A DNA stretch of 64,000 nt from Bacteroidota bacterium (GTDB taxonomy: Bacteria; Bacteroidota; Ignavibacteria; Kryptoniales; JAKASW01). This document shows, piece by piece, positions 22,114-34,211 of the stretch (its first letter is position 1; the number at the start of each line of letters is the position of its first letter). Position numbers and translations under genes: made by a program. The DNA lies in assembly GCA_021825585.1 (NCBI GenBank), contig JAKAGT010000010.1:62001-126000 (forward strand), written 5' to 3'. The notes below the pieces were generated by a model. That model had not been told where the DNA came from and ran no database searches. It saw nothing but the letters and a program-made list of their open reading frames with translations.

Positions 22114-24792
22114 CTAAGGAACAACTTTAGCATAGGTGCCTGTTAAAAATTTGAAACTCATGTTTAGCTGCACTGCCCCGTGAGGTATGAGAACATACTT
22201 CCATGGTTTGCCAGCGTGCTTTATGGTGTAGTCGGTGGCATACTTACAGTACTCAAGGGCTGCTTTGGATTTCTGCTGAACCTCGTCGGAATTCATCTCG
22301 CCTTCCTTCTTTGTCTCCACCATATAGATGGCATCTGCCGTTTCTGCGACGAAGTCAGGGTGATATTGTCTTGTGTTGTGATTCCAGTAAATGTAGAACT
22401 GGTTCGATGCCGGCCTCAGCCACTTGAGGACGTCTTTGTCGCTTTCAAGAATGGCAGCGAAGTCCTTTTCTGTCTTGGAATCGAATTTGTATAGATTATG
22501 GCAGGCCTTTGAAAAGCCGCCGAAGATCTTGGTCGGGATTGCGCTTGTCGGTGTTATCGTGTCTGTGTAATGAAAGATGCTGTCCTTTGAATACTTCGAG
22601 TAATTGTGCTCCTCAATGCGGGTGAAAGCCCTTACGATCGGCTCCTGGAACGATGGCGTTTCAATGTAGAAATGCTCCATCAGCTGTGCATAGATGAAGT
22701 CGGCAATCTCTTTCTTGTGGTACTGAACAACGTTGACCAGCGGGTCCTCGTCAAGATAAGACCGGAAGTGTGTGATGGCTTCATCAGCAAGCTCAAATAA
22801 AAAGTCGGACTGTTTGTCGTAGTCGACCTCAGGGTGGTTGATCAGCTCGTTGACAATAATATTGTCAAGCCTGTCGGGTATAATTCGACCTCCCCCGATT
22901 ACTGTATCGGTGCCGTTTTCCTGTTCACGCAGCTTTTTTATCAGTATCTCCTCGGAAACAGGCTGATATCTCAGATTCTTCGCGTCAAGAACGAAAGGCT
23001 TGAATCCGGACTTTACCTCGTTAGACTGTTGTATGACAATTCTCGGGATCTCTATGATGTGCTGAGAAAATTCGGAAACAGCCGCTTCGTATTGCCTCTT
23101 TGCTTCGCTGATCAGCTCGCCGGCGAATAAGCTCTGCTGGGGATCAGAGGTTATGTGCTGCTCGATTTTCTGGAAGGCTATTTCGGCAACCTCTTTTGTG
23201 GTCAGGTCAGCTACGTTCTTTGCATCGGTGTTCAGTTCCGGAAGTACTGAGAGGATGAGTTTCTTTGCCTCCAGTTCGGAGAGCGCCTGTTTCTTTTCCG
23301 TTGCGTCGGTTATCGCCTCGATGCGCCGTTTGTCTTCCTCGGCCTTCTTATCGATTACGGAGACGCTGGTAACAACCTCCTTCGACTGCTCCAGCTCATC
23401 GACATCGATCTCGATGATGTTTTCCTTCCTGATGATCGAGTCCGGCTTATTCGCTTCGTCAATGATTTCCTGAAACTTGTCATGTGCTACGATCGTGAGC
23501 TTGTCGACTTTGTCGGCGCCGGTGCGCTTCCCGTATGGAAGACGAAGTCCGCGGCCGATTGTCTGCTCGCGAAGTGTCGTTGAAGCGGCCGCGCGAAGAG
23601 GAATAATCGTGTAAAGGTTTGTGACGTCCCAGCCCTCTTTCAGCATATTGACGTGAATTACGATCTCGATCTTATTCTCCGGGCTCTCCAGAGAGACGAG
23701 CTGGGCTATGTTTTCGTCCTTCTCTTCACCGGACTGGTTGGAGTGAATCTCCATGACTTTATCCGCGTAACGGCCGTCGAAAAACGAAGGAGAGGTTATC
23801 AGTTCTTTGAGCTGGCTGGCATGCTCGGTATCCTTGGATACGACAAGGACAAACGGTTTTACTTTCTGAGTCCTGGAGTCACGTGAATAGATGTCGAGCG
23901 CGACTTTGGTATCTTCGTGGATCCGAATGCCATCTTCGAGCTTTATCCGGTCAAGTTCCTCAGCCTTGTAATGGGAGGGGTCAAAGTCTTTGCGTGTCGC
24001 TACCGCGGGTTCCTTCACGAAGCCGTCCCGAATTGCCTTGGCAAGAGAATACTCATAGACCACGTTCTTGAACTTCGTGGTGCCGCCGCTTCGTTCGACC
24101 TGGGGTGTAGCAGTCAGCTCAAGGCCGAGGATCGGATTGAGCTCGTTTATGACTTCCATTCCCCGCTCGGCACGGTAGTGATGGGATTCGTCCATCAGCA
24201 GAACCAGATCGTCCAGATTCGATAGGTAATTGAAATACGATTCGCCGAGGTATTCCACAAGTCTCTTGATTCGCGGAAGCTTCCCACCGCGCATTTCTGA
24301 ATTTATTTTTGAAATGTTGAACAAGTTTATATGCACTTCGGACTCAAACAGCGCAATCTGCGACAGCGAGTCGTAATTGTCCCCGGTTACTATTTTCGGG
24401 CGGGAGTGAACGAACTCTCCGATGCCCTGGAAGACGTATTTGGGGCTTGAGGTGTTTTCGAAGTCCGCGATCAGCTTGTTGTAGACGGTTAAGTTGGGAG
24501 CCAGGACGAAGAAGTTCTTAATCCCTTTCTCAAGGAATAAATAAGCGGCGAAGGCGCCCATCAGTCTCGTTTTCCCGACGCCGGTTGCCAGTGCGAAGCA
24601 GACCGATGGAAAGCTGCGCTCGAAATCAGAACAGGTCGGATAGAGTGACTTCACCTTAGCAAGTTCCGATTGAATGTCGGCGTTTTTCTTGAGAGTTAAT
24701 CTATCCGTGATGGCGGAGAGGATATCGAGGCTGTCGGCTTGGGGCTGCCTGAGGCTGAGGCGGTTCTTGATCTGATTTGCGGTACGGTTCAT
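22114..24792 (-). CDS. res: Type III restriction enzyme, Res subunit (helicase-endonuclease)
   Basis: An 892-residue superfamily 2 helicase-nuclease. Walker A is at residues 69-75 (ATGVGKT), the DEAD-box equivalent DESH at 201-204, motif III-like LELTATP near 225 and motif VI IGRGLRLPYG at 412-420. The C-terminal PD-(D/E)xK nuclease is intact: P812-D813 in YHPDF and E826-T-K828 in YMVETKK. With a Mod subunit it would translocate and cut unmodified DNA. The mod gene is separated from it by a BRO-N gene, a GxxExxY gene and several palindromic repeats. It is the last gene of the island on this strand. Confidence 0.93.
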   Translation of the reverse strand: MNRTANQIKNRLSLRQPQADSLDILSAITDRLTLKKNADIQSELAKVKSLYPTCSDFERSFPSVCFALATGVGKTRLMGAFAAYLFLEKGIKNFFVLAPNLTVYNKLIADFENTSSPKYVFQGIGEFVHSRPKIVTGDNYDSLSQIALFESEVHINLFNISKINSEMRGGKLPRIKRLVEYLGESYFNYLSNLDDLVLLMDESHHYRAERGMEVINELNPILGLELTATPQVERSGGTTKFKNVVYEYSLAKAIRDGFVKEPAVATRKDFDPSHYKAEELDRIKLEDGIRIHEDTKVALDIYSRDSRTQKVKPFVLVVSKDTEHASQLKELITSPSFFDGRYADKVMEIHSNQSGEEKDENIAQLVSLESPENKIEIVIHVNMLKEGWDVTNLYTIIPLRAAASTTLREQTIGRGLRLPYGKRTGADKVDKLTIVAHDKFQEIIDEANKPDSIIRKENIIEIDVDELEQSKEVVTSVSVIDKKAEEDKRRIEAITDATEKKQALSELEAKKLILSVLPELNTDAKNVADLTTKEVAEIAFQKIEQHITSDPQQSLFAGELISEAKRQYEAAVSEFSQHIIEIPRIVIQQSNEVKSGFKPFVLDAKNLRYQPVSEEILIKKLREQENGTDTVIGGGRIIPDRLDNIIVNELINHPEVDYDKQSDFLFELADEAITHFRSYLDEDPLVNVVQYHKKEIADFIYAQLMEHFYIETPSFQEPIVRAFTRIEEHNYSKYSKDSIFHYTDTITPTSAIPTKIFGGFSKACHNLYKFDSKTEKDFAAILESDKDVLKWLRPASNQFYIYWNHNTRQYHPDFVAETADAIYMVETKKEGEMNSDEVQQKSKAALEYCKYATDYTIKHAGKPWKYVLIPHGAVQLNMSFKFLTGTYAKVVP

Positions 24793-24804
24793 AATGGTTT
24801 AATG

Positions 24805-24904
24805 GCACGCAGAAAACACTGAAGAAGCACAGATTCTCACTGATATGTCCATGATAATCGTCTTATCTGTAATCATCTCGTATCTTTCGGTGTCATCTGT
24901 GTGC
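24805..24904. repeat. Palindromic repeat R1
   Basis: A 100-bp copy of the island's repeat family, starting GCACGCAGAAAACACTGAAG and ending in TCATCTGTGTGC. The two ends are inverted copies of each other. It begins 12 bases upstream of the res start and is more diverged than R5-R8. Confidence 0.75.
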
Positions 24905-24923
24905 CATCCCTTTTTCTTTTATT

Positions 24924-25007
24924 GCACACTGATGACACTGAATCAACAGATTCGCACTGATTGAATTATCTGTGACCATCTCGTTTGTTTCAGTAAATTC
25001 TGCGTGC
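24924..25007. repeat. Palindromic repeat R2
   Basis: An 84-bp diverged copy of the same family, starting GCACACTGATGACACTGAAT and ending TTCTGCGTGC. Its last base is the first base of the complement of the GxxExxY stop codon (25007-25009), so it begins exactly at the 3' end of that gene. Confidence 0.75.
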
Positions 25008-25411
25008 TATTTCTTTTCCTTTCGGTCGTTTGTGAAGATCTTCCTCTTTATTTCAGGCTTTTTTCCAAAGTTGAGTAATAGCCCAACTTCAACATTTGTA
25101 GCCTTTAAGTAGTTAATAAGTTGATACTCATGTTCCTCAGCCAAAGCCTCAACAGCTTTGAGCTCAACGATGACTGTATCTTCCACAACAATATCGGCGA
25201 AATAGTCACCGACAATTGAATCCTTGAAATAAACCTTTATCGGTTGCTGAGCTTTTGCTCGCAAACCTTTTTCCGCAAGAACAACCAGCATCGCATTTTC
25301 ATAAACCTTTTCCAGGAACCCGAAACCCAGAGTGTTGTAAACCTCATAGAAGCAGCTAATGATCTTCTCGGTCAGTTCTTTGTGAAGATAGTTGCTCTTA
25401 TCTGTGGTCAT
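25007..25411 (-). CDS. GxxExxY protein (PD-(D/E)xK_3 family)
   Basis: A 134-residue protein with the defining motif G31-FL-E34-KV-Y37 and a PD-(D/E)xK-like core: D73 in FADIVVED, then E83-L-K85 in IVELKAVEAL. The family is widespread and uncharacterised; a nuclease fold is the usual prediction. The ATG at 25409-25411 lies inside an arm of the palindromic repeat (R3), so the first codons (MTTDKS) are repeat-derived, and the stop abuts R2. The frame is open upstream to 25570 through R4, but that part is only repeat translated. It may be the partner of the repeats rather than part of the restriction system. Confidence 0.87.
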   Translation of the reverse strand: MTTDKSNYLHKELTEKIISCFYEVYNTLGFGFLEKVYENAMLVVLAEKGLRAKAQQPIKVYFKDSIVGDYFADIVVEDTVIVELKAVEALAEEHEYQLINYLKATNVEVGLLLNFGKKPEIKRKIFTNDRKEKK

Positions 25412-25439
25412 CTCGTCTCTTTCTGTGTATTCTGTGTGC
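25391..25439. repeat. Palindromic repeat R3, single arm
   Basis: Only the right half of the repeat is present (TTATCTGTGGTCATCTCGTC through TTCTGTGTGC). The left half is replaced by the GxxExxY gene, whose start codon falls inside this arm. Confidence 0.75.
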
Positions 25440-25449
25440 AAAAAGCTTC

Positions 25450-25598
25450 GCACACTTGCCGCCTTGCGGCATCCCGCATCATCTAATAAATCTGATGTCG
25501 GAGCGGGAGATAACACTGAAAACGCACTGATTCCCACTGATAAGAAAATGTTATTCCTATCTGTGGTCATCTCGTCTTTTTCAGTGTAGTCCGTGTGC
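25450..25598. repeat. Palindromic repeat R4, composite form
   Basis: A 149-bp composite: a GCACACTTGCCGCCTTGCGG segment with 'AATAAATCTGATGTCGGAGC', then a standard repeat ending CCGTGTGC. It is a shorter version of R6/R8, lacking the middle part that contains 'GATTTTGTATGTCGGGATCC'. Its last base is shared with the complement of the BRO-N stop codon. Confidence 0.78.
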
Positions 25599-26443
25599 TA
25601 TCTTTTCTTTCCGTTATCAAGTTCTCTCCTTTTTCTCTGAGAAAGCTCTTTGAAGTTCTTGCTGGTCACAACTTTCCTGCCCGATTTCTTTTCCAACTCT
25701 TTTCTTGCGTTTCCAGCGACTGTTCCACCTTCTACGGCGGCCCTTTCATTCTCGGGGAGCCCTTGAGCGTCTTTATTGCGGGCTATCTCGGTGGTTGCTG
25801 CCTCGCCGAGCATGGTGAATATCAATTCCAGATCGGTCATGTGATCGCGGAGATTCTCTTGTGGCTTCGACAAGCCTTTGAATTTCTTGTAGTCGGCTGG
25901 GCTCAAGCCAAAGGTGGCTTTGCTTATGTCGGCAGTAAGTATCGCATACTCGACGCCTTCTTTGACACCGCGTTTTTTCCATTCAGCGGTCAATTCGTCC
26001 CGGACAGCGATGCCGCGGACACGTTTTTCGATCCACTCATCGCTGTAACCTTTTGCTTTATAGATCTCCTTCATTCGCGTCTGGGCAAGCTCAGGATTCT
26101 CAATTTCCTCAAGGCGTTCATTCCCAACTTTTGCTAACCAGAGCTTGAAGGGTTCTGCTTTCGGAGAAGGAATGGATTGAATAATTCTCAACAAGCCTTG
26201 CGCGTTTGCACAACTCATTCGCTGTCTTCCACCTGGAGTATCAACCGAAAGGGCAGGTACAAATTGTACCCATCCTTTGGCAAGTTCAGGATCACGCTGC
26301 TTCATTCGCTTCACATATTGCTTGGGATCGGCACTATCGGTCAAGGCGGCAACGACATCTTCGACAACGAAGTAAAGTTTCTGGTCTGCGTCGTTCCAAG
26401 CTGATCGAATCTTCTTTTCTTCAAAGAGTTTAATGTTCGCCAT
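25598..26443 (-). CDS. BRO-N domain protein (phage antirepressor-like)
   Basis: A 281-residue protein. The first 100 or so residues form a BRO-N/antirepressor-type domain (KLFEEKKIRSAWNDADQKLY, then VVEDVVAALTDS). A conserved region follows with QGLLRIIQSIPSPKAEPFKL, then the C-terminal DLELIFTMLGEAATTEIA and GGTVAGNARKELEKK. This family is common in Bacteroidota and near restriction loci; BRO-N domains bind DNA, but the role here is unknown. An excellent ribosome site (GAGGAGG, 26451-26457) precedes the ATG by seven bases, and a perfect palindrome (26463-26477) lies just upstream, so it may be autoregulated. It sits between mod and res. Confidence 0.85.
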   Translation of the reverse strand: MANIKLFEEKKIRSAWNDADQKLYFVVEDVVAALTDSADPKQYVKRMKQRDPELAKGWVQFVPALSVDTPGGRQRMSCANAQGLLRIIQSIPSPKAEPFKLWLAKVGNERLEEIENPELAQTRMKEIYKAKGYSDEWIEKRVRGIAVRDELTAEWKKRGVKEGVEYAILTADISKATFGLSPADYKKFKGLSKPQENLRDHMTDLELIFTMLGEAATTEIARNKDAQGLPENERAAVEGGTVAGNARKELEKKSGRKVVTSKNFKELSQRKRRELDNGKKR

Positions 26444-26462
26444 GCATAAGCCTCCTCAAAGC

Positions 26463-26477
26463 GTGACAATTTGTCAC
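26463..26477. promoter_or_regulatory. Putative operator: perfect inverted repeat upstream of the BRO-N gene
   Basis: GTGACAA-T-TTGTCAC, a 7-bp perfect inverted repeat with one-base centre. It lies 20 bases upstream of the BRO-N start and 6 bases upstream of its Shine-Dalgarno sequence. The size and symmetry fit a dimeric helix-turn-helix binding site overlapping the 5' leader. The binding protein is unknown. Confidence 0.55.
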
Positions 26478-26499
26478 GGTTTCGTTTCCCTCTTCTTTT

Positions 26500-26596
26500 G
26501 CACACAGATTCCACAGAAGAAGCACTGATTTTCACTGATAAGGAAATATTATTCTTATCTGTGTTCATCTCGTTTCTTTCTGTGTATTCTGTGTGC
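26500..26596. repeat. Palindromic repeat R5
   Basis: A 97-bp repeat beginning GCACACAGATTCCACAGAAG and ending TGTATTCTGTGTGC. It lies between the mod stop (six bases away) and the BRO-N leader. Confidence 0.8.
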
Positions 26597-26602
26597 TTTC
26601 TT

Positions 26603-28291
26603 TCAGAACAGCCTCTCCTGTTTTTCATCCGCCTTCTGCCTCTTTGACTTCGATGGGTTGGAGGCGATAGGGCCGGTCGGAACGAAATCGGGTTCACCGT
26701 CTTCTCGGGGCATATTTATGATGTTCAGACTGTAATCCTCTTTGCCGAACTCGCACCGGCCAAGGAGCATCTTCGGAATCTTCTTGATCGTGATGTTCGG
26801 GTACTTATCAGCAGCCTTGCTGAAAGAGGTGCAGCAGATCAGAAGACTTTCATCCGATTTCATTTCGCTCTGAATTGTATCCACTAAGTCGACGCTGACG
26901 AAGTTCGTCGTGGTGAAGATATAGTCCTTTTCAGTGGACTGGCCCTGCTTCCAGTAGTAGGTTTCGTCCGGCTGGAATCGGAATCCTTCATGTTTTGCCA
27001 TTGCGGCGGCAAGCTGTGCAGCATTGTACTGCTTGTTGATGATCCAGTTGCCCTTCTTGTCCTGGAGAAGCAAAGATGGAGCGAGGTAGTAGTACTTGAA
27101 TCCACCGCCGCCCTTCCAGTTCTGAGCTTCGCTGATGCCGCCCTGGTCTGTTCCATCACAGACCATCTTTAGCCGAGGAATGCAATGAGTATGGCAATGT
27201 TCGCCAAGTTCGATGCCAATCCATTTGCGCTTCATCTTGTGAGCGACAGCGGCTGTAGTGCCTGAACCAAGGAAGGAGTCGAGAACCCAGTCGCCTTCCT
27301 TTGAACCAACAGCAATAATGCGGTCGATTAGGCGTTCAGGCTTGGGGGTTGCAAAAATCTCCTCGCTGTTGAAATCCTTCACTTCTCGCTTTGCCTCTTG
27401 GTTATCACCGACTTCTTGTCGGAGCCATATGGTCTGGCACACCATTCCTTCTTGGACTTCCGAAAGGAATCGCTTCACCCGAGGTACGTTATTTCCATTA
27501 GCGCCGAAATAAAGTCGTTTATCTGCTAATAGTTCCTGATACCTCTTGGGACTTGCGCCCCAGCACCGACCACTGGGCGGAAGTAGTGTTCGTCCGGACG
27601 GCGTTACAATCTCATAAATGTTTCCACTTTCACCAGTTCGTGCAAATTGGGCGCCACGTTGTCCGCCAGTGAGACTAATCGTAAAGTCACTTGACATCCA
27701 CATTCCGCGAGGGTCATTGTCCGGGTTTCTGTATCTTGACTCAGCCAGCACTGATCTCTCAAGTAAATTCGGTCTCCATGTTTGTTTGTCCCTTGCATAT
27801 ACAAGTATGTGGTCATGACTGTCGGAAAGCCAAACCGCATTGGCCTGCGGGGAAGATTTCTTCTGCCAAATGACATTGTTCACGAAGTTTCTTCTCCCAA
27901 AAACTTCATCGCATAAGATCTTTAAATAATGGCTTTCATCGTCATCGATGGATATCCAGATTGAGCCGTCATTGCTAAGCAGCGAATACAGAAGCTCAAG
28001 ACGGGGTTTCATCAGGTTCAGCCAGATTGAATGTTCGAGGCTGTCATCATAGTGTTCGAATGCGTTGCCCGTGTTGTACGGTGGATCGATGTAAATGCAC
28101 TTTATCTTTTCAGCAAAGTTCTGTTCGAGTGCCTTCAAGGCGAGCAGGTTGTCACCGTAGATGAGCATGTTCTCGGTGTTCTTGTCGCCGTAAGACTTCT
28201 CTGGATCTTCGATGAGGATTCGCGGCTCGAGCTTGGGCTGCTCGCCTTTGCCGATCCAGCTTAGTTCGAGTTTTTGTTTGTTGTTAGTCAT
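26603..28291 (-). CDS. mod: Type III DNA methyltransferase (Mod; adenine-specific, beta class)
   Basis: A 562-residue site-specific N6-adenine methyltransferase. The catalytic motif IV DPPYNTG is at residues 69-75 and the SAM-binding motif I FLGSGTT at 340-346, in the order typical of beta-class enzymes. The start region (LELSWIGKGEQPKLEPRILI, then YGDNLLALKAL) is characteristic of type III Mod proteins. The central residues 140-320 would hold the target-recognition domain. It specifies the recognition site for the Res protein at 22114. The gap to the upstream gajB-like gene is 83 bases. Confidence 0.94.
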   Translation of the reverse strand: MTNNKQKLELSWIGKGEQPKLEPRILIEDPEKSYGDKNTENMLIYGDNLLALKALEQNFAEKIKCIYIDPPYNTGNAFEHYDDSLEHSIWLNLMKPRLELLYSLLSNDGSIWISIDDDESHYLKILCDEVFGRRNFVNNVIWQKKSSPQANAVWLSDSHDHILVYARDKQTWRPNLLERSVLAESRYRNPDNDPRGMWMSSDFTISLTGGQRGAQFARTGESGNIYEIVTPSGRTLLPPSGRCWGASPKRYQELLADKRLYFGANGNNVPRVKRFLSEVQEGMVCQTIWLRQEVGDNQEAKREVKDFNSEEIFATPKPERLIDRIIAVGSKEGDWVLDSFLGSGTTAAVAHKMKRKWIGIELGEHCHTHCIPRLKMVCDGTDQGGISEAQNWKGGGGFKYYYLAPSLLLQDKKGNWIINKQYNAAQLAAAMAKHEGFRFQPDETYYWKQGQSTEKDYIFTTTNFVSVDLVDTIQSEMKSDESLLICCTSFSKAADKYPNITIKKIPKMLLGRCEFGKEDYSLNIINMPREDGEPDFVPTGPIASNPSKSKRQKADEKQERLF

Positions 28292-28374
28292 ATCTGTAAT
28301 GTGTAATTCTGCTTCGTTGTCTCATATCCTCTTCGGCAACATTCTCTTTTTTGCGCAGAATGGGATTAGGTCTA

Positions 28375-30120
28375 TCAGGTAATATCAAGTTTCTTCCTCC
28401 ATACTTCACAATCACTTTCAGGCACAGCGATCCATAATATTTTACGAGGACGTGTCATGGCGACATAAACCGTTCTAAGTTCTTCTTTTTGTTTACTGGA
28501 CAAAGTCTTTTTAGGAAATAGTAAAGTCTCATAATTTGAGTTGCCTGCTTTGTGAGCAAGAACCAACATGACCGCCTCGAAAGTCTTGCCTTTGGCTGAG
28601 TGAATTGTTCCCAAAAAACACTCAGCGTTTGATGGTTGGGCATCCATTTTAAATAGATTCTTTATGGCCACATCTGATTTCTTAGCATGTGTGCTCAACT
28701 TAATGTTGATCTTATCACTCAAGAGGAGCTGGTTTGCTTCGGCTATCCACTGCTTCAACACTGCTTCGCGAGTCGGGGGCAAGAGATTAGCGAATTGAAA
28801 AATCTTGTTCCGATAGCTCTTGAAGCCTAGCTCTTCAATTTTGTTATTGATGAATTCCTCGGAACAGAATTTTAGGCCTGGCTCCACTGCCTTATGGTAT
28901 CCCCTTTCAATTGATCTGAAACCTCTTCTAAAATCTCCGCTTTCCAGCAAAAACTTTCCAAAAACAATTTCTCTCACATAGCCATGATTAGTGAGCCACG
29001 GCTCTTCGGTTTCTTCAATGGTTGATACTCCGCACCATTTGCCTACAACACGGCGGCTCCGGAATAGCACGGCGACATCCTCTGAATTAATAGTGATCTG
29101 TCTGTCCTTGCAACACTGCAGGTATTCTTGCACAATCTGGTTTACACTTTTTTCGTCCTCTTTGTGCATTACTACGCGGGGCTTGTAATTGTAATCCTTG
29201 TCTGCTCCTATCACTTCGTAGTTTGGGATGCCAAGAAGATGTCGGCTACAATCACAGATGGATCTTGAACTCCTCCTGTTCTCATTCAGATCTATTCGAC
29301 ACCACTTCTCCAGTTCATATTTCTTCGTGAATAGTTCTGGCCTAGCATTATTCCATTCAAAGATTGCTTGGTCAGGGTCTCCAATCAAAGCAATTTGATT
29401 CAAGCCCTTGTCCTTCAATATGTCAATAATTGCTATTTGTAGGTCATTTGTATCCTGACCTTCGTCAATAATGAAGTGTGAAAACCTATTCAGGATGCCT
29501 TTCCCTATGAGACTGTAATCCTTCAAGATTCTATGCGCGATGTATATCGCGTCGGACTGGTTGGCTTTTCCGTCTTTGAAAAGTGTCTCTTTCGAGCTTC
29601 GAATGTGATTCCGTAAATGGAGATATTTACCTCCAAAGAAGGTATTGAGAATATTTCCGATGGGTATCACTTCCCCTGCGATATCGAAACTGAATAGATC
29701 AAAATATTGATAGAAAGCTTTTTCTCCATTGCCTAGGTTCGGATAATACCATCTGTTGTAAGGTTCTCCGACTAACTCTGGACGTTTTCCGCAGCTCATT
29801 ATCAGGTGGCCAAATGGCAAGAAGATGTATTGATTTATGAAACTATCGATGGTTCCGATGAAGTGAGGGTATCCTACAGGAGTTTTGACATTAAAGGCTT
29901 CTTTGAGTTTCTTTTCTATTTCTTGCCAAGCCACATTTGTAAAAGAAAGTGCTGCAATACCTTTACGGGAAAAATCAAATTGGGGATCATGAAGCAATCG
30001 GGCGATCCGCGCGGCAACCGAATATGTCTTGCCGCTACCTGGACAGGCCTTCACGACAAAAATTCCATCCTGGTTGACTACTCTTTTTTGCTGTGCCGAC
30101 AATGAATCTTCATTTATCAT
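28375..30120 (-). CDS. gajB: GajB-like UvrD/PcrA-type helicase (Gabija-type)
   Basis: A 581-residue SF1A helicase with all core motifs: Q motif LSAQQKRVV, Walker A ACPGSGKT, DEGQD in motif II, IGDPDQAIFEWNN in motif III, IHSAKGKTFEAVM in motif V and YVAMTRPRKILW in motif VI. I start it at ATG 30118-30120, which overlaps the gajA-like stop by 11 bases (ATGATAAATGA), indicating coupling. The frame is open upstream inside gajA but without homology. A UvrD-like helicase directly after a class 2 OLD nuclease gene is the Gabija anti-phage arrangement. It is somewhat longer than the GajB proteins I know of (about 500 residues). Confidence 0.88.
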   Translation of the reverse strand: MINEDSLSAQQKRVVNQDGIFVVKACPGSGKTYSVAARIARLLHDPQFDFSRKGIAALSFTNVAWQEIEKKLKEAFNVKTPVGYPHFIGTIDSFINQYIFLPFGHLIMSCGKRPELVGEPYNRWYYPNLGNGEKAFYQYFDLFSFDIAGEVIPIGNILNTFFGGKYLHLRNHIRSSKETLFKDGKANQSDAIYIAHRILKDYSLIGKGILNRFSHFIIDEGQDTNDLQIAIIDILKDKGLNQIALIGDPDQAIFEWNNARPELFTKKYELEKWCRIDLNENRRSSRSICDCSRHLLGIPNYEVIGADKDYNYKPRVVMHKEDEKSVNQIVQEYLQCCKDRQITINSEDVAVLFRSRRVVGKWCGVSTIEETEEPWLTNHGYVREIVFGKFLLESGDFRRGFRSIERGYHKAVEPGLKFCSEEFINNKIEELGFKSYRNKIFQFANLLPPTREAVLKQWIAEANQLLLSDKINIKLSTHAKKSDVAIKNLFKMDAQPSNAECFLGTIHSAKGKTFEAVMLVLAHKAGNSNYETLLFPKKTLSSKQKEELRTVYVAMTRPRKILWIAVPESDCEVWRKKLDIT

Positions 30121-31957
30121 TAACAGCCCACTTGATTCCCTTTTGGATATAATCTGGGACAATAAACTTGGACCTAAGCTCTTCAAAATGATCTTGTAGA
30201 TGCATCGCAAGCTTGTGAGCTAATTCAGATTTGTCTCTAAAGGAATCGAGTTTGTCTAGCAGGTCCATGGCCCGTTCTTCATTACTTCCTTCGCGCTTTA
30301 ACTTAGTATGGGTATGAATTCCTTCGTAAATCTCACGCATTATTTTTTCGTTTTCATCCGAAGCAGTGAATAATTCATACTCGAAAGTCTTTCGTGCTAA
30401 AAGGACATCGACATTGCCTTTCTTCAGGCTCTCTGCGATCAAAGCCCGTGGCGACTTGTTCCCGCCATTCCTGTGGCTGTCATCATCTGTTAGGAGCGCA
30501 CAATGTATGTTGAGTTTCTTTGCGCCGTCTTTATCCGAAGCTATGAAGAGATTAGCAAAATGTTCAAACGCAACTCCGCCGACGACCACTACTTCTATGC
30601 CTTTCCGTGCTATGTCATATTTTATCTCTTTGTGACCGTCGTCTTTGCCTTCGTTAGCAAGGTGATCCATGATCTTTGAAAATATCGGAAGTAATAGTCC
30701 TTCAGAAATTCCTTCAACTAAAATTATTCCCTTTGAGAAAAACAATTGCGACTTTGTAACATCAAGAAACTTAGAAAGGTATTTCCTGTTTTCTGGTGAC
30801 AGATTGGAGTCTTTCAATGCCAGAGAAGAGACTTCACCAAAGTTCCTCCTCATCACCGTAATAAACTCAAGATTTGTTTTAGCAGTTATTGTTGGGGAAT
30901 GAGATGTAATGAATATCTGGATATCTTTGTCCTCAAACGAGTTAATGTATTTGAAAAAAGTGTTTTGCATCTGAGGGTGCAAGTGCGCTTCAGGTTCCTC
31001 AATTAGCAAAGCATGATAATAGCCCTTTTCCTTTCTATTGATCAAATCTCCCAAGACTGTTGCCGCGTAGATTAAGTTGTTCTCTCCAAGTCCGTTTTGA
31101 AATAGAGTGAAGTATCTTTGCTCTGCTCCATGTTGGATCTTTTCTTCACTTAAAATCGGAATCTGCAACTGAAGGTTATTTATGATATCGTCATATTCGT
31201 ACCCCGAGAATCCAACTTCTATTTCTTTATTGTCGCCTTGAATGGATGATTCTTTGAAATGTTTATTGACCTTCGTCTCCCCTTCCGCTATCAAGTATTT
31301 CCAATCGTTACCATCGTCATTGAGCCAATTTACTAGCTTGTCCGCAAGTTCCTTCTTTTTCTCCTTATCCAATTTCTGTGTACCACCATCTTTGGTGTAT
31401 TGCAGTAAGCTTTCGAACAGCGAAACCAACTTATTATTGTGGCTGTACGGTCGCAGCTTTTGTGTTGCATCCCTCAGCGCATCCAAGAATGTGTAGTCTA
31501 TGAATTGAAGGGGCTCAGAAGGAACACCCTGCCCTTCATTCGTGCCACCCCATATTTTCCAGCGAGGTATCTTTCTGTCGTTTTTCTCTTCCAACCGATA
31601 ACGAAAATGAATCTGGATTTCTTGAGACTCGACGTTGTCTTTATCTTGAAAGAGCAACTCATTGAACAGGCCGCGTTCAGAATCGTCTTCAATATGAAAA
31701 TGCAAATCAAACTCGATCTCAGGCAGCGTAACAGTACTGCTATCTTTATCAATGTGGAAGTCGGACGGTCGAATACCGATGTCCCGCCATTGCTTGCCAT
31801 ACCCAAGACAAATCCTCAAAGCGTCGATCATCGACGACTTGCCCGAATTGTTTTCACCAATGAAAACATTGACCCCTTTGTTGAAGGTCAAATCTAAAGA
31901 TTCAATGCAGCGGAAATTACGGATCTTGAATTCTCGCAAGTACATAGGTGATTTCAT
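30110..31957 (-). CDS. gajA: GajA-like OLD-family ATPase with TOPRIM nuclease domain (Gabija-type)
   Basis: A 615-residue protein. The ABC/SMC-like ATPase has Walker A GENNSGKSS near residue 35, a signature-like GLGENNLIYAA near 290, Walker B LLIEEPEAHLHPQ near 320 and a histidine switch ITSHSPTI. The C-terminal TOPRIM domain has the glutamate in ILVEGISEGLLLP and the acidic pair in LLTDDDSHR. OLD proteins nick or cut DNA; in Gabija, GajA forms a complex with GajB. The ATG overlaps the DUF2130 stop by four bases (ATGA), and the stop overlaps the helicase start. Sampled lines read about 43-48% G+C against about 53% in the left part of the window, which hints at horizontal transfer. Confidence 0.88.
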   Translation of the reverse strand: MKSPMYLREFKIRNFRCIESLDLTFNKGVNVFIGENNSGKSSMIDALRICLGYGKQWRDIGIRPSDFHIDKDSSTVTLPEIEFDLHFHIEDDSERGLFNELLFQDKDNVESQEIQIHFRYRLEEKNDRKIPRWKIWGGTNEGQGVPSEPLQFIDYTFLDALRDATQKLRPYSHNNKLVSLFESLLQYTKDGGTQKLDKEKKKELADKLVNWLNDDGNDWKYLIAEGETKVNKHFKESSIQGDNKEIEVGFSGYEYDDIINNLQLQIPILSEEKIQHGAEQRYFTLFQNGLGENNLIYAATVLGDLINRKEKGYYHALLIEEPEAHLHPQMQNTFFKYINSFEDKDIQIFITSHSPTITAKTNLEFITVMRRNFGEVSSLALKDSNLSPENRKYLSKFLDVTKSQLFFSKGIILVEGISEGLLLPIFSKIMDHLANEGKDDGHKEIKYDIARKGIEVVVVGGVAFEHFANLFIASDKDGAKKLNIHCALLTDDDSHRNGGNKSPRALIAESLKKGNVDVLLARKTFEYELFTASDENEKIMREIYEGIHTHTKLKREGSNEERAMDLLDKLDSFRDKSELAHKLAMHLQDHFEELRSKFIVPDYIQKGIKWAVNDK

Positions 31958-33222
31958 TCTCCAGTTTGGTTTTCGTTCGAACCCAACAGCTTCATATCCA
32001 AGCCTTCAATCTCCTGCATTGTCTTGCCCGCGATGCCCTGCAAGTCTCCGTACATACCAACCGTCGCTACCATCACGTGTTCGATCTGCTCTTCTCTCTT
32101 GGCCCACTGCTTCGTGATGGCTTTCTTCTCCCTATCCAGGTTTTCCTGCATCGTGGAAAAAGCCTCGACGATAGCCTGCACGCGCTGCCGGAAGCGCGGG
32201 CCGGTAAGATACTGATATACCATCTCCATCTTGGTTTGCTGACCTTCAGTGGCAAGTCGGGCGGAGGCCGTCTCAATGAGTCCCTGACGCAGCAGGAGCG
32301 CAACTGCCAAGGCAGCTTTGGGAGTCGTAACGTAAACGCCATCAACCAGGTCGAAGAGGTCAACATTCTTTGGCAGCGATTGTGACACTATTACGGCAAT
32401 CTCGGCCTTCGCGGCTCGCTGATCTTCGCGGAGCTTCGGCAGCCACGAATCGCTCCAGGCTTTCGTACGCTTCGATTCCCAAATTATTGTTCCACTCTGC
32501 TGGCCGAGCGGACTGACAACTCTTTGCAGAACATCGCCGCCGTGTTCGCCCTTGGCAACGGGTTCAATCAGGTCATGTGGAAATTTGGAGCGCAACAAGC
32601 TTTCCAGCTCAAGCTCCTGGACCTCACCCTGCAGCTGCTGCGAGCCTTGCTCAGCTTTTCGCTTCATCTCCTCAGCGAGTTTCTTTTGATCGTCAAGTTG
32701 CTTTTCCAACTCTCTAATCTTCATGGTAGAAGATTCATCGAGTTGTTTTTGGATTTTTACTCTTTCTTCCTTCAGCTTCTCCGAGTATTCTTTCTCTTTT
32801 TCGAGAGCTACTTCATCACGAAGCTCATTCTTTTCACGTTTAAGCTTTTCAATTTCGGCTTTGGCTTTATTAAGATCTTTTACCTGTCCGGATTTCTGTT
32901 CGAGTTCTCTCTGCAAAGACTTGATTTGCGCGTCCGTCTCTTCTTTCATTTCTTCACGAATGGACTTCTCCATCTTGAGTTTTTCAGAGTTGAGCTTTGC
33001 CTTGATTCCTTCGTTGATCTGCTTCTGGAGATGTTCTCGATCCTTTTCCAGTTTCTCTTTTTCCTCGTCTAAGGACTTGACCTTCTTCTCTAACTCTTTT
33101 TCTTTCTTTGCACTTTTCTCGTCATACTCTTTTTTGAGTTGCTCCTGGACCTGGCGATATAAGATTTCGCTAACATCGATTTTTGCGCCGCATTTCGGGC
33201 AGTTTATTGTTGGTTCTGCCAT
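31954..33222 (-). CDS. DUF2130 protein: zinc-ribbon, long coiled coil and PD-(D/E)xK-like nuclease domain
   Basis: A 422-residue protein. The N-terminal CPKCG (C8, C11) resembles half a zinc ribbon. A highly charged Lys/Glu coiled coil covers about residues 22-200. The DUF2130 domain follows, with a nuclease-like core: D230 in HGGDVLQRV and E249-S-K251 in TIIWESKRTK, matching PD-(D/E)xK spacing. The protein is uncharacterised in general. The stop overlaps the gajA-like start by four bases, making it the first gene of a coupled three-gene operon. The start is preceded by TGAGGT, and repeat R6 ends only 25 bases upstream, so the promoter must lie in or across the repeats. Confidence 0.88.
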   Translation of the reverse strand: MAEPTINCPKCGAKIDVSEILYRQVQEQLKKEYDEKSAKKEKELEKKVKSLDEEKEKLEKDREHLQKQINEGIKAKLNSEKLKMEKSIREEMKEETDAQIKSLQRELEQKSGQVKDLNKAKAEIEKLKREKNELRDEVALEKEKEYSEKLKEERVKIQKQLDESSTMKIRELEKQLDDQKKLAEEMKRKAEQGSQQLQGEVQELELESLLRSKFPHDLIEPVAKGEHGGDVLQRVVSPLGQQSGTIIWESKRTKAWSDSWLPKLREDQRAAKAEIAVIVSQSLPKNVDLFDLVDGVYVTTPKAALAVALLLRQGLIETASARLATEGQQTKMEMVYQYLTGPRFRQRVQAIVEAFSTMQENLDREKKAITKQWAKREEQIEHVMVATVGMYGDLQGIAGKTMQEIEGLDMKLLGSNENQTGE

Positions 33223-33247
33223 GGTTACCTCATGAATTCAAAAAATA

Positions 33248-33441
33248 GCACACTTGCCGCCTTGCGGCATCTCCCGTCAAAAAGATTTTGTATGTCGGGA
33301 TCCCGCAAAGCGGTGACCGCATCATTTAATAAATCTGATGCCAGAGCGGGAGATGACACAGAAGAAGCAATGATTTTCACTGATAAGAAAACAATATTTC
33401 TATCTGTGATCATCTTGTCTCTTTCCGTGTGTTCTGTGTGC
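33248..33441. repeat. Palindromic repeat R6, long composite form
   Basis: 194 bp. A GC-rich inner segment (starting GCACACTTGCCGCCTTGCGG, with GATCCCGCAAAGCGGTGACC) is followed by a standard repeat ending TTCTGTGTGC. It is about 95% identical by eye to R8 and of exactly the same length. It lies directly upstream of the DUF2130 operon. Confidence 0.85.
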
Positions 33442-33451
33442 TAAGAGCTTT

Positions 33452-33548
33452 GCACACCGAGAACACTGAAAAGGCACTGATTTTCATTGATAAGAAAATA
33501 GCATTTCTATCCGTGGTCATCTCGTTTCTTTCTGTGTATTCTGTGTGC
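33452..33548. repeat. Palindromic repeat R7, standard form
   Basis: 97 bp, from GCACACCGAGAACACTGAAA to TGTATTCTGTGTGC. About 15 of the first 20 bases match the reverse complement of the last 20, and inner parts also pair imperfectly (TGATAAGAAA with the complement of TTTCTATCCG). It is a good model copy of the family. Confidence 0.85.
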
Positions 33549-33558
33549 CAAAAACTTT

Positions 33559-33752
33559 GCACACTTGCCGCCTTGCGGCATCTCCCGTCAAAAAGATTTT
33601 GTATGTCGGGATCCCGCAAAGCGGTGACCGCATCATTTAATAAATCTGATGTCGGAGCGGGAGATGACACAGAAGAAGCAATGATTTTCACTGATAAGAA
33701 AACAATATCTCTATCTGTGGTCATCTTGTTTCTTTCTGTGTATTCTGCGTGC
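33559..33752. repeat. Palindromic repeat R8, long composite form
   Basis: 194 bp, a near-identical direct repeat of R6, with R7 between them. It marks the right-hand limit of the repeat family in this window. Confidence 0.85.
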
Positions 33753-34211
33753 CGTTGTTTTATTCTGTCACCCACTGCCATCGGGATTTTCGGTATGAGA
33801 TAAAGCTGGTTACTCATACAAGATATTGATCCAAAGAGTACTTTGGACAAATTCACTCTAGAATAGAGTTTTCCGAAATCATGACGGTCCGCCCTTCTGT
33901 AAATTGTGATCAGCCAGTCCCAAATTACTGTTGGGTAAAATTTATACGATATACCGAGGAATAACAAACGTCCGACCCGTTCGGCATGCCTAGTGCAATA
34001 TCAGGAATCAATTCCAACAAATCATCTTCTACAATAGTAGACAAATGTTCACCAAGAAAAATGTATCTCTCCTGAAAGAGAAAGTCAAGATGGTAGGTGT
34101 ATTGCAGGATAATATTAGTATCCCACTGAAAAACAGGAGGATACCAGGATAGGCAGACTATCTTTTATTGTGAAATATCAGATAGAATTCCGTCTATCTA
34201 CCTTAAAATAA
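33753..34211. other. AT-rich interval with possible decayed coding sequence
   Basis: 459 bases with no intact gene. On the minus strand, a stop-bounded frame without a start (reading ...WYPPVFQWDTNIILQYTY...) runs to a TAA and then appears to continue in a shifted frame (FLGISYKFYPTVIWDWLITI, then LYSRVNLSKVLFG and NQLYLIPKIPM) until it meets repeat R8. This looks like a degraded gene interrupted by a frameshift and by the repeat. I do not recognise the family. Confidence 0.35.

Follow-up and report, generated by a model that had tools for sequence, protein, structure and literature searches.

In the DNA studied here, a stretch of 64,000 nucleotides from a contig of a Bacteroidota bacterium (JAKAGT010000010.1; hereafter the window), a small gene of the GxxExxY family lies among copies of a palindromic repeat, and this raises the question of whether gene and palindromes belong together. 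A sequence-only reading of the locus had proposed that they form one element in the manner of RAYT/REP pairs, with the other palindromes as non-autonomous copies.

The GxxExxY gene of the window and its palindromes

The window contains eight copies of a 51-nt repeat (Table 1), and each palindrome consists of two inverted rows of about four CACNGAT-like units with a short loop in between. When folded as DNA hairpins and compared with shuffles, five of the seven full copies reached z values from -2.4 to -5.4, and the other two -1.95 and -1.09. Given the eight copies of the repeat and the hairpin folding of five out of seven full ones, the arrangement is not due to chance. Besides R2 and the half copy R3, six further full palindromes (R1, R4-R8) are found within 24.8-33.8 kb, in and beside a restriction-modification island, where a 202-nt segment including R8 (33551-33752) is a 95% duplicate of a segment including R6 (33240-33441). 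No Rfam family reached its gathering score within 24700-33900. Two local peculiarities were also seen: a GGAGCGGGAGA-type end stands in place of the first unit in R4, R6 and R8, and a separate repeat (CTTGCCGCCTTGCGGCATCCCGCATC...GTCGGAGCGGGAG) adjoins R4 at 25456-25511 and recurs on other contigs of the window genome as well as in many genomes of the same genus.

Table 1. Palindromic repeats, the GxxExxY gene and neighbouring genes in the window
Feature	Position	Strand	Remarks
ResIII, type III restriction/helicase-like gene (context)	22114..24792	-	
R1, gene-less palindrome of CACNGAT-type units	24805..24904		hairpin z -3.34
R2, palindrome at 3' end of gene	24924..25007		hairpin z -1.09, not significant
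GxxExxY (TIGR04256/PF13366) PD-(D/E)XK nuclease gene, 134 aa	25007..25411	-	ATG in R3, stop overlaps R2
R3, half copy with start codon and first codons	25389..25439		inverted arm 25397-25443
R4, palindrome, first unit replaced by GGAGCGGGAGA-type sequence	25502..25598		z -3.37
Bro-N domain gene (context)	25598..26443	-	
R5, best-preserved palindrome, between Bro-N and methylase genes	26500..26596		z -5.44
N6_N4_Mtase, adenine DNA methylase gene (context)	26603..28291	-	
R6, palindrome	33345..33441		z -2.36
R7, palindrome	33452..33548		z -1.95
R8, palindrome	33656..33752		z -4.47

The coordinates bear out that the gene sits between R2 and the half copy R3, and that its stop codon (TAG, 25009-25007) has one base, 25007, in common with R2. 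The start ATG (25411-25409) lies within R3. Out of the six codons (MTTDKS) that had been assigned to the repeat arm, MTTDK (25411-25397) falls entirely within the inverted arm, whereas S (25396-25394) lies just beyond it and belongs to the repeat only by the wider boundary of the aligned 51-nt copy. This ATG is the sole in-frame one from the domain up to an ATG at 25570, which is itself located within a repeat copy (R4); GTG or TTG codons are present at 25537, 25516, 25453 and 25441. The idea that the repeat supplies the start codon as a feature of the element did not hold up: an ATG in contact with the array was seen in just one of seven relatives inspected (L100), and the start codon taken from the repeat is a local trait of the window copy that does not generalise.

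The gene is an intact member of its family. In profile searches, computed on the longer reading frame starting at 25570, the protein scored 137.6 bits against TIGR04256 (cut-off 35) and 142.5 bits against PF13366 (cut-off 22), and it carries both the GxxExxY motif and the PD-(D/E)XK catalytic residues (D73, E83, K85). The Y1 (HUH) transposase domain PF01797 was not found in it by profile search, which returned PF13366 only. PHROGs gave no match, a sequence search of solved structures nothing significant (best E 0.5), and there are no Cas genes among the three neighbours of the gene that were scanned. The window genome has six GxxExxY matches, whose flanks, judged by eye, show differing unit types: AACAGGAT, CGCAAAG (two forms), CACNGAT and others. 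At L001, L003 and L004 the inverted flanks reach the score of 17 defined below; of the other three matches, L002 has a 64-nt direct repeat on either side, L005 is interrupted by an internal stop and L006 is only a fragment. In the 12 other genomes of the genus, no orthologous insertion site or island was found for the window's own copy.

The AlphaFold2 model of the protein (pLDDT 91.2, pTM 0.84) finds its best PDB match in the Cas4 protein SSO0001 (4ic1; Foldseek E 3e-4; Z 9.2 over 105 residues, rmsd 5.2), followed by other PD-(D/E)XK nucleases such as LHK-Exo (3syy) at Z 6.1, a value in the range under 8 that the tool itself flags as not decisive. Across 68 aligned sequences (five of 73 rows were left out, among them L161 with an internal stop), seven columns including G31, E34, D73, E83 and K85 are invariant, and Y37, Q97 and Y101 are present in 90% or more, so that QxxxY is nearly invariant. 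In the model, the fold is thus Cas4/lambda-exonuclease-like with conserved active-site residues, and the PD-(D/E)XK core with QxxxY is common to GxxExxY and to SSO0001 and LHK-Exo; PADLOC also reports weak Cas4 matches in nine of 26 members. Cas4 proteins have four conserved cysteines for an Fe-S cluster. In contrast, no cysteine occurs among the invariant or nearly invariant columns of the 68 GxxExxY sequences, so that an iron-sulphur cluster of the Cas4 type is not expected, and the gene lies outside CRISPR loci here and is flanked by unit arrays; it lacks the four cysteines and the CRISPR neighbourhood that would place it within Cas4. The genes are under purifying selection, with dN/dS values of 0.03-0.10 in eight of ten pairs, the other two pairs not being estimable.

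Inverted unit arrays accompany the family

To compare flanks, the 300 bases upstream of each gene were aligned locally with the reverse-complemented 300 bases downstream, and the best match was scored, with a threshold of 17. Among 296 Bacteroidota genomes sampled, 152 carry GxxExxY, and 74 of 96 GxxExxY genes (at 93 loci) reach the threshold, compared to 25 of 785 control genes, which are the other genes of the same 20-kb stretches. The 96 genes come from the best-scoring family matches, and the set therefore favours typical members. A second, separately collected set of 80 named loci, mostly from other phyla, gave 60 of 72 loci against 17 of 322 neighbouring genes after eight loci had been dropped for short flanks; it is not fully independent, since some of its loci are from Bacteroidota and at least one locus is a duplicate (L155 = L043). 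Family members without such flanks had been named beforehand as the outcome that would speak against a common element, and in both sets the result favours the idea. The expectation that flanks elsewhere carry the same palindromes was right as to inverted flanks and wrong as to identity, since the matched flanks are tandem rows of 7-8-base units of several types (CACAGAG, CGCAAAG, CACGAAT, CGCCAAG, ACAGGAT, CACNGAT).

The arrays also have a preferred orientation. Rows of three CRCNRAK units were found in sense upstream of 47 and in antisense downstream of 45 of the 96 genes, and in the opposite orientation at 14 and 10, where about 0.004 per flank are expected from the rest of the stretches. 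In the first loci this test is circular, because the pattern was read off them; the inverted score is free of this, and so are the counts for the named loci, with 29 and 29 of 72 in the orientation just described and 5 and 2 in the opposite one. A unit pair follows the gene in 111 of 176 loci, and in these the stop codon lies a median of 11 nt from the array. Nine control genes score at least 20; two of them are TIGR02436 four-helix genes and one is an IS200/REP-type transposase (below the family cut-off), a known case of the inverted-flank arrangement. A viral origin of the family was rejected: it is nearly absent from viral contigs, with only two in IMG/VR (L177, L178) encoding a relative.

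Besides their mere presence, the type of unit goes along with the type of protein. In a tree of 128 proteins, in which many forks are unresolved and from which 48 of 176 loci were left out for a score below 17, over-long arms or short flanks, proteins with the same type of unit group together across phyla, as in a CACGAAT clade (L116, L121, L126), a CGCCAAG clade (L133, L150, L170) and a CACNGAT clade that unites the window protein with L097, L037 and L095; the named loci retained span 17 phyla, as the tool names them. The last letter of the unit (position 7, G or T; 19 of the 128 loci lack a clear label) changes 10 times on this tree, compared to 32.0 +/- 1.7 times with shuffled labels, whereas control DNA at a distance of 1.2 kb, labelled in the same way, gives no signal (28 vs 29.3 +/- 2.3). 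Position 2 was dropped as a specificity mark, since a composition-based control label fits the tree equally well. Protein distance correlates with array distance (Mantel r 0.27; control DNA 0.10), and a weak correlation is seen for pairs in different phyla (r 0.098, a value reached by 11 of 500 permutations, with named loci without an assigned phylum counted as Bacteroidota). Position 7 stays constant along much of the tree even though synonymous sites are near saturation even in close pairs (dS 0.7-2.2 in seven of ten pairs). As a separate lead, resting on hand-picked clades, an Arg in helix 1 accompanies CGCAGAT units: the pairing is seen in 7 of the 7 rows of a nested clade and in 0 of 11 in its neighbours.

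Presence, absence and gene-less arrays

Presence and absence could be followed at one orthologous intergenic site in a Flavobacterium-like genus, where 41 genomes were searched and 30 loci fetched (11 genomes being without a fetched locus), 29 of them readable and one lacking an anchor. The site is empty or nearly so in 12 of the 29 (0-30 bases from stop to start codon) and holds GxxExxY with CRCARAG-type arrays in seven, a second, different GxxExxY with CACGAAT arrays in four, a gene-less palindrome only in two (L208, L216) and other sequence in three; in one locus (L202), both CRCARAG-type arms are kept around a truncated gene. On the host-gene tree, the site changes state 12 times. This agrees with the proposal that gene and palindromes are one element insofar as gene and both arms are jointly present or jointly absent at this site. 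Presence and absence were also observed at two sites of gene-less palindromes. No target-site duplication was seen at the Flavobacterium-like site, the one site resolved, where stop and start codon directly adjoin each other in the empty form.

Other sites show further rearrangements. GxxExxY genes or their arms are tandemly duplicated in L064, L075 and L419, consistent with recombination between arrays. At L268, a palindrome between two anchor genes, the inverted arms continue into the adjacent host gene, at its conserved end (CTGAATTA/TAATTCAG), in this one case as if host sequence had been copied inverted. The SDR-uxuA site carries palindromes of a CACATAG unit (AACACATAGAAACATAG...) in L243, L244 and L245, and CRC-type palindromes in related species.

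Unit arrays are found mostly in genomes with a GxxExxY gene. At least one row of three CRCARAG units is present in 70 of the 152 GxxExxY-positive genomes and in 5 of the 144 negative ones, and in total 385 rows were counted in the former and 7 in the latter, with only 6 rows of the reversed pattern in all 296 genomes. Fourteen of the 385 are not elements, because the matches in G191 are a plain tandem repeat at two places, and part of the remaining rows are the flanks of GxxExxY genes rather than gene-less copies. The gene-less rows are intergenic and occur as inverted pairs, outward pairs and singlets. In eight of 14 genomes they match the flank of a resident GxxExxY gene, and across the 14 genomes the observed mean match is reached in 101 of 20000 permutations. 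In the other six, no resident flank matches, all GxxExxY matches above the family cut-off having been compared; this mismatch is the main result against a strict one-protein-one-repeat system.

Taken together, we consider it reasonably probable that these elements are a RAYT/REP-like system built on the PD-(D/E)XK nuclease GxxExxY. The window gene with its two inverted unit arrays would then be the resident protein-coding member of an interspersed palindromic repeat family, and R1 and R4-R8 would be gene-less members of that family. The protein, a putative compact nuclease of the Cas4/lambda-exonuclease type without Cas4's cysteines, would most likely recognise the short tandem units proper to its family, CACNGAT in the window, and may act as a nuclease on the palindrome, be it as hairpin, cruciform or duplex. 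Such an activity would let arrays be copied into intergenic places, with the gene staying put while the arrays spread, as RAYT does for REP sequences.

The comparison with RAYT/REP fits in several respects. The GxxExxY gene is likewise flanked by inverted copies of an interspersed palindromic repeat, as in a REPtron, and the descriptions given in parts of PMC3116915 and PMC3733652 also agree in that the gene is not self-copying, that paralogs within a genome do not cluster together and that the repeats occur as singlets and inverted doublets. According to passages of PMC3116915, the closest relatives of a RAYT are found in other genomes. Similarly, we saw no recently dispersed GxxExxY copies within a genome: the paralogs compared do not exceed about 71% DNA identity, the exceptions being two tandem duplications and a pair of contig-end copies that are identical. 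The flanking position, the singlets and inverted doublets and the lack of self-copying speak for the likeness to a RAYT/REP pair that had been proposed, and the concentration of arrays in family-carrying genomes also favours the proposal of one element. Differences lie in the protein, which is a PD-(D/E)XK nuclease instead of a Y1 (HUH) transposase, and in the repeat, which is a tandem row of 7-8-bp units inverted around gene or loop, with units that vary by protein clade. The repeat unit of a REPtron is a short hairpin with a GTAG or CGTC tag; those observed here are tandem words of the CRCNRAK type. MITEs and TIR-bearing insertion sequences share the inverted terminal sequences and the dispersed gene-less copies; in contrast to them, the GxxExxY gene has no transposase domain and a unit array takes the place of a fixed TIR, and the target-site duplication of classical elements was absent at the one resolved site.

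Other routes to the same arrangement

The same architecture is found around an unrelated protein. TIGR02436 four-helix genes have inverted flanks scoring at least 15 in 21 of 27 loci and at least 17 in 16 of 27 (L335-L364; three of 30 dropped for length), and no CRC array was found at the 27 loci scored, the flanks being tandem units of another style (e.g. TCAGTAA, AGCTATT). Further TIGR02436 genes were noticed at L057:5992-6363 and L061:11258-11662. Since TIGR02436 is unrelated and without a nuclease, the nuclease is not needed for this architecture, which points either to several parallel systems or to a common spreading route with the protein as helper.

In a rival reading, the palindromes would owe their spread to something else, be it host repair, replication or other enzymes, and GxxExxY would be a homing-type nuclease gene that settles inside existing ones: its product would cut a palindrome without a gene, and repair would then copy the gene in between the arms. 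That one intergenic site can carry either of two GxxExxY/array types or a palindrome alone would fit such homing, as would the six genomes whose gene-less arrays lack a matching resident gene and the non-nuclease gene TIGR02436 in the same arrangement. At the Flavobacterium-like site, however, unit type switches together with gene type, and a gene dropping into a ready-made palindrome must therefore change the arms too; moreover, unit type follows the protein clade. For these reasons we regard homing as unlikely.

In another reading, the inverted arms could be a cis feature of a small gene cassette, either binding sites for self-regulation or an RNA panhandle that is trimmed, with the gene-less palindromes as decayed cassettes. 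The comparison here is with the intervening sequences of 23S rRNA and RNase III, and we take the S23 protein of these sequences to belong with TIGR02436. GxxExxY and S23 alike show an inverted repeat-ORF-inverted repeat cassette of about 0.4-0.5 kb, which for S23, according to parts of PMC4990558, is cut by RNase III and is of unknown mobility. Unlike the S23 cassette inserted in rRNA, those of GxxExxY lie between protein genes and carry CRC-type unit arrays; the window copy is a nuclease-fold ORF between restriction-modification genes and not a four-helix ORF inside a 23S rRNA helix. Decay could have left the two arms with a truncated gene in L202 and the palindromes alone in L208 and L216, but in several genomes arrays outnumber genes (50 vs 9 in G240, 23 vs 1 in G184, 31 vs 4 in G025), and singlets and outward-facing pairs are not easily produced by decay of a cassette, which makes a purely cis-acting role rather improbable.

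That tyrosine (Y1) transposases of the RAYT kind move the arrays, with GxxExxY as a passenger, is very unlikely. The window genome does contain ten Y1_Tnp matches, but a CRC unit pair adjoins the gene in none of the eight loci examined; at L328, unit pairs lie only several hundred bases off, and the RAYT-like L327 and L330 have inverted hairpins of another kind, which bear no relation to the CRC arrays. RAYT was therefore rejected as mobiliser, as the Y1_Tnp loci of the same genome have other hairpins or none. Finally, pure chance is refuted by the control genes of the same stretches, which show the pattern in 3-5%, and hitch-hiking, by which flanks conserved merely through travelling with the gene would likewise correlate with the protein tree, is hardly credible in view of a constant position 7 with synonymous sites near saturation.

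In the open-licence literature, searches by repeat word and topic brought up no description of a GxxExxY-array pairing, as far as the text covered shows, a check by term in the REP survey PMC12306157 included; GxxExxY is named in two papers, each time in passing, and PF13366 in one. GxxExxY is a common annotation without known role, and the RAYT/REP-like reading gives it a concrete partner DNA and a testable recognition code, protein clade against unit letters. It also suggests where a large number of so far unexplained intergenic repeats probably come from, and it offers a fresh angle on the old puzzle of the rRNA intervening sequences. Tentatively, and with slightly more doubt than confidence, we propose a more general picture, in which interspersed palindromic elements made of rows of 7-8-bp units are read by a dedicated Cas4-like GxxExxY protein through a clade-specific code and copied under its drive. 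TIGR02436, with its presumed relatives in rRNA intervening sequences, would form a parallel class with another unit grammar, and REP/RAYT would be one of at least three independent inventions. The data suggest that REP/RAYT is one case of a wider lifestyle, the joint persistence of a small single-copy gene with the palindromes on either side of it. They also point to a type of spreading DNA element that has drawn little notice, has its own nuclease and occurs in many bacterial phyla.
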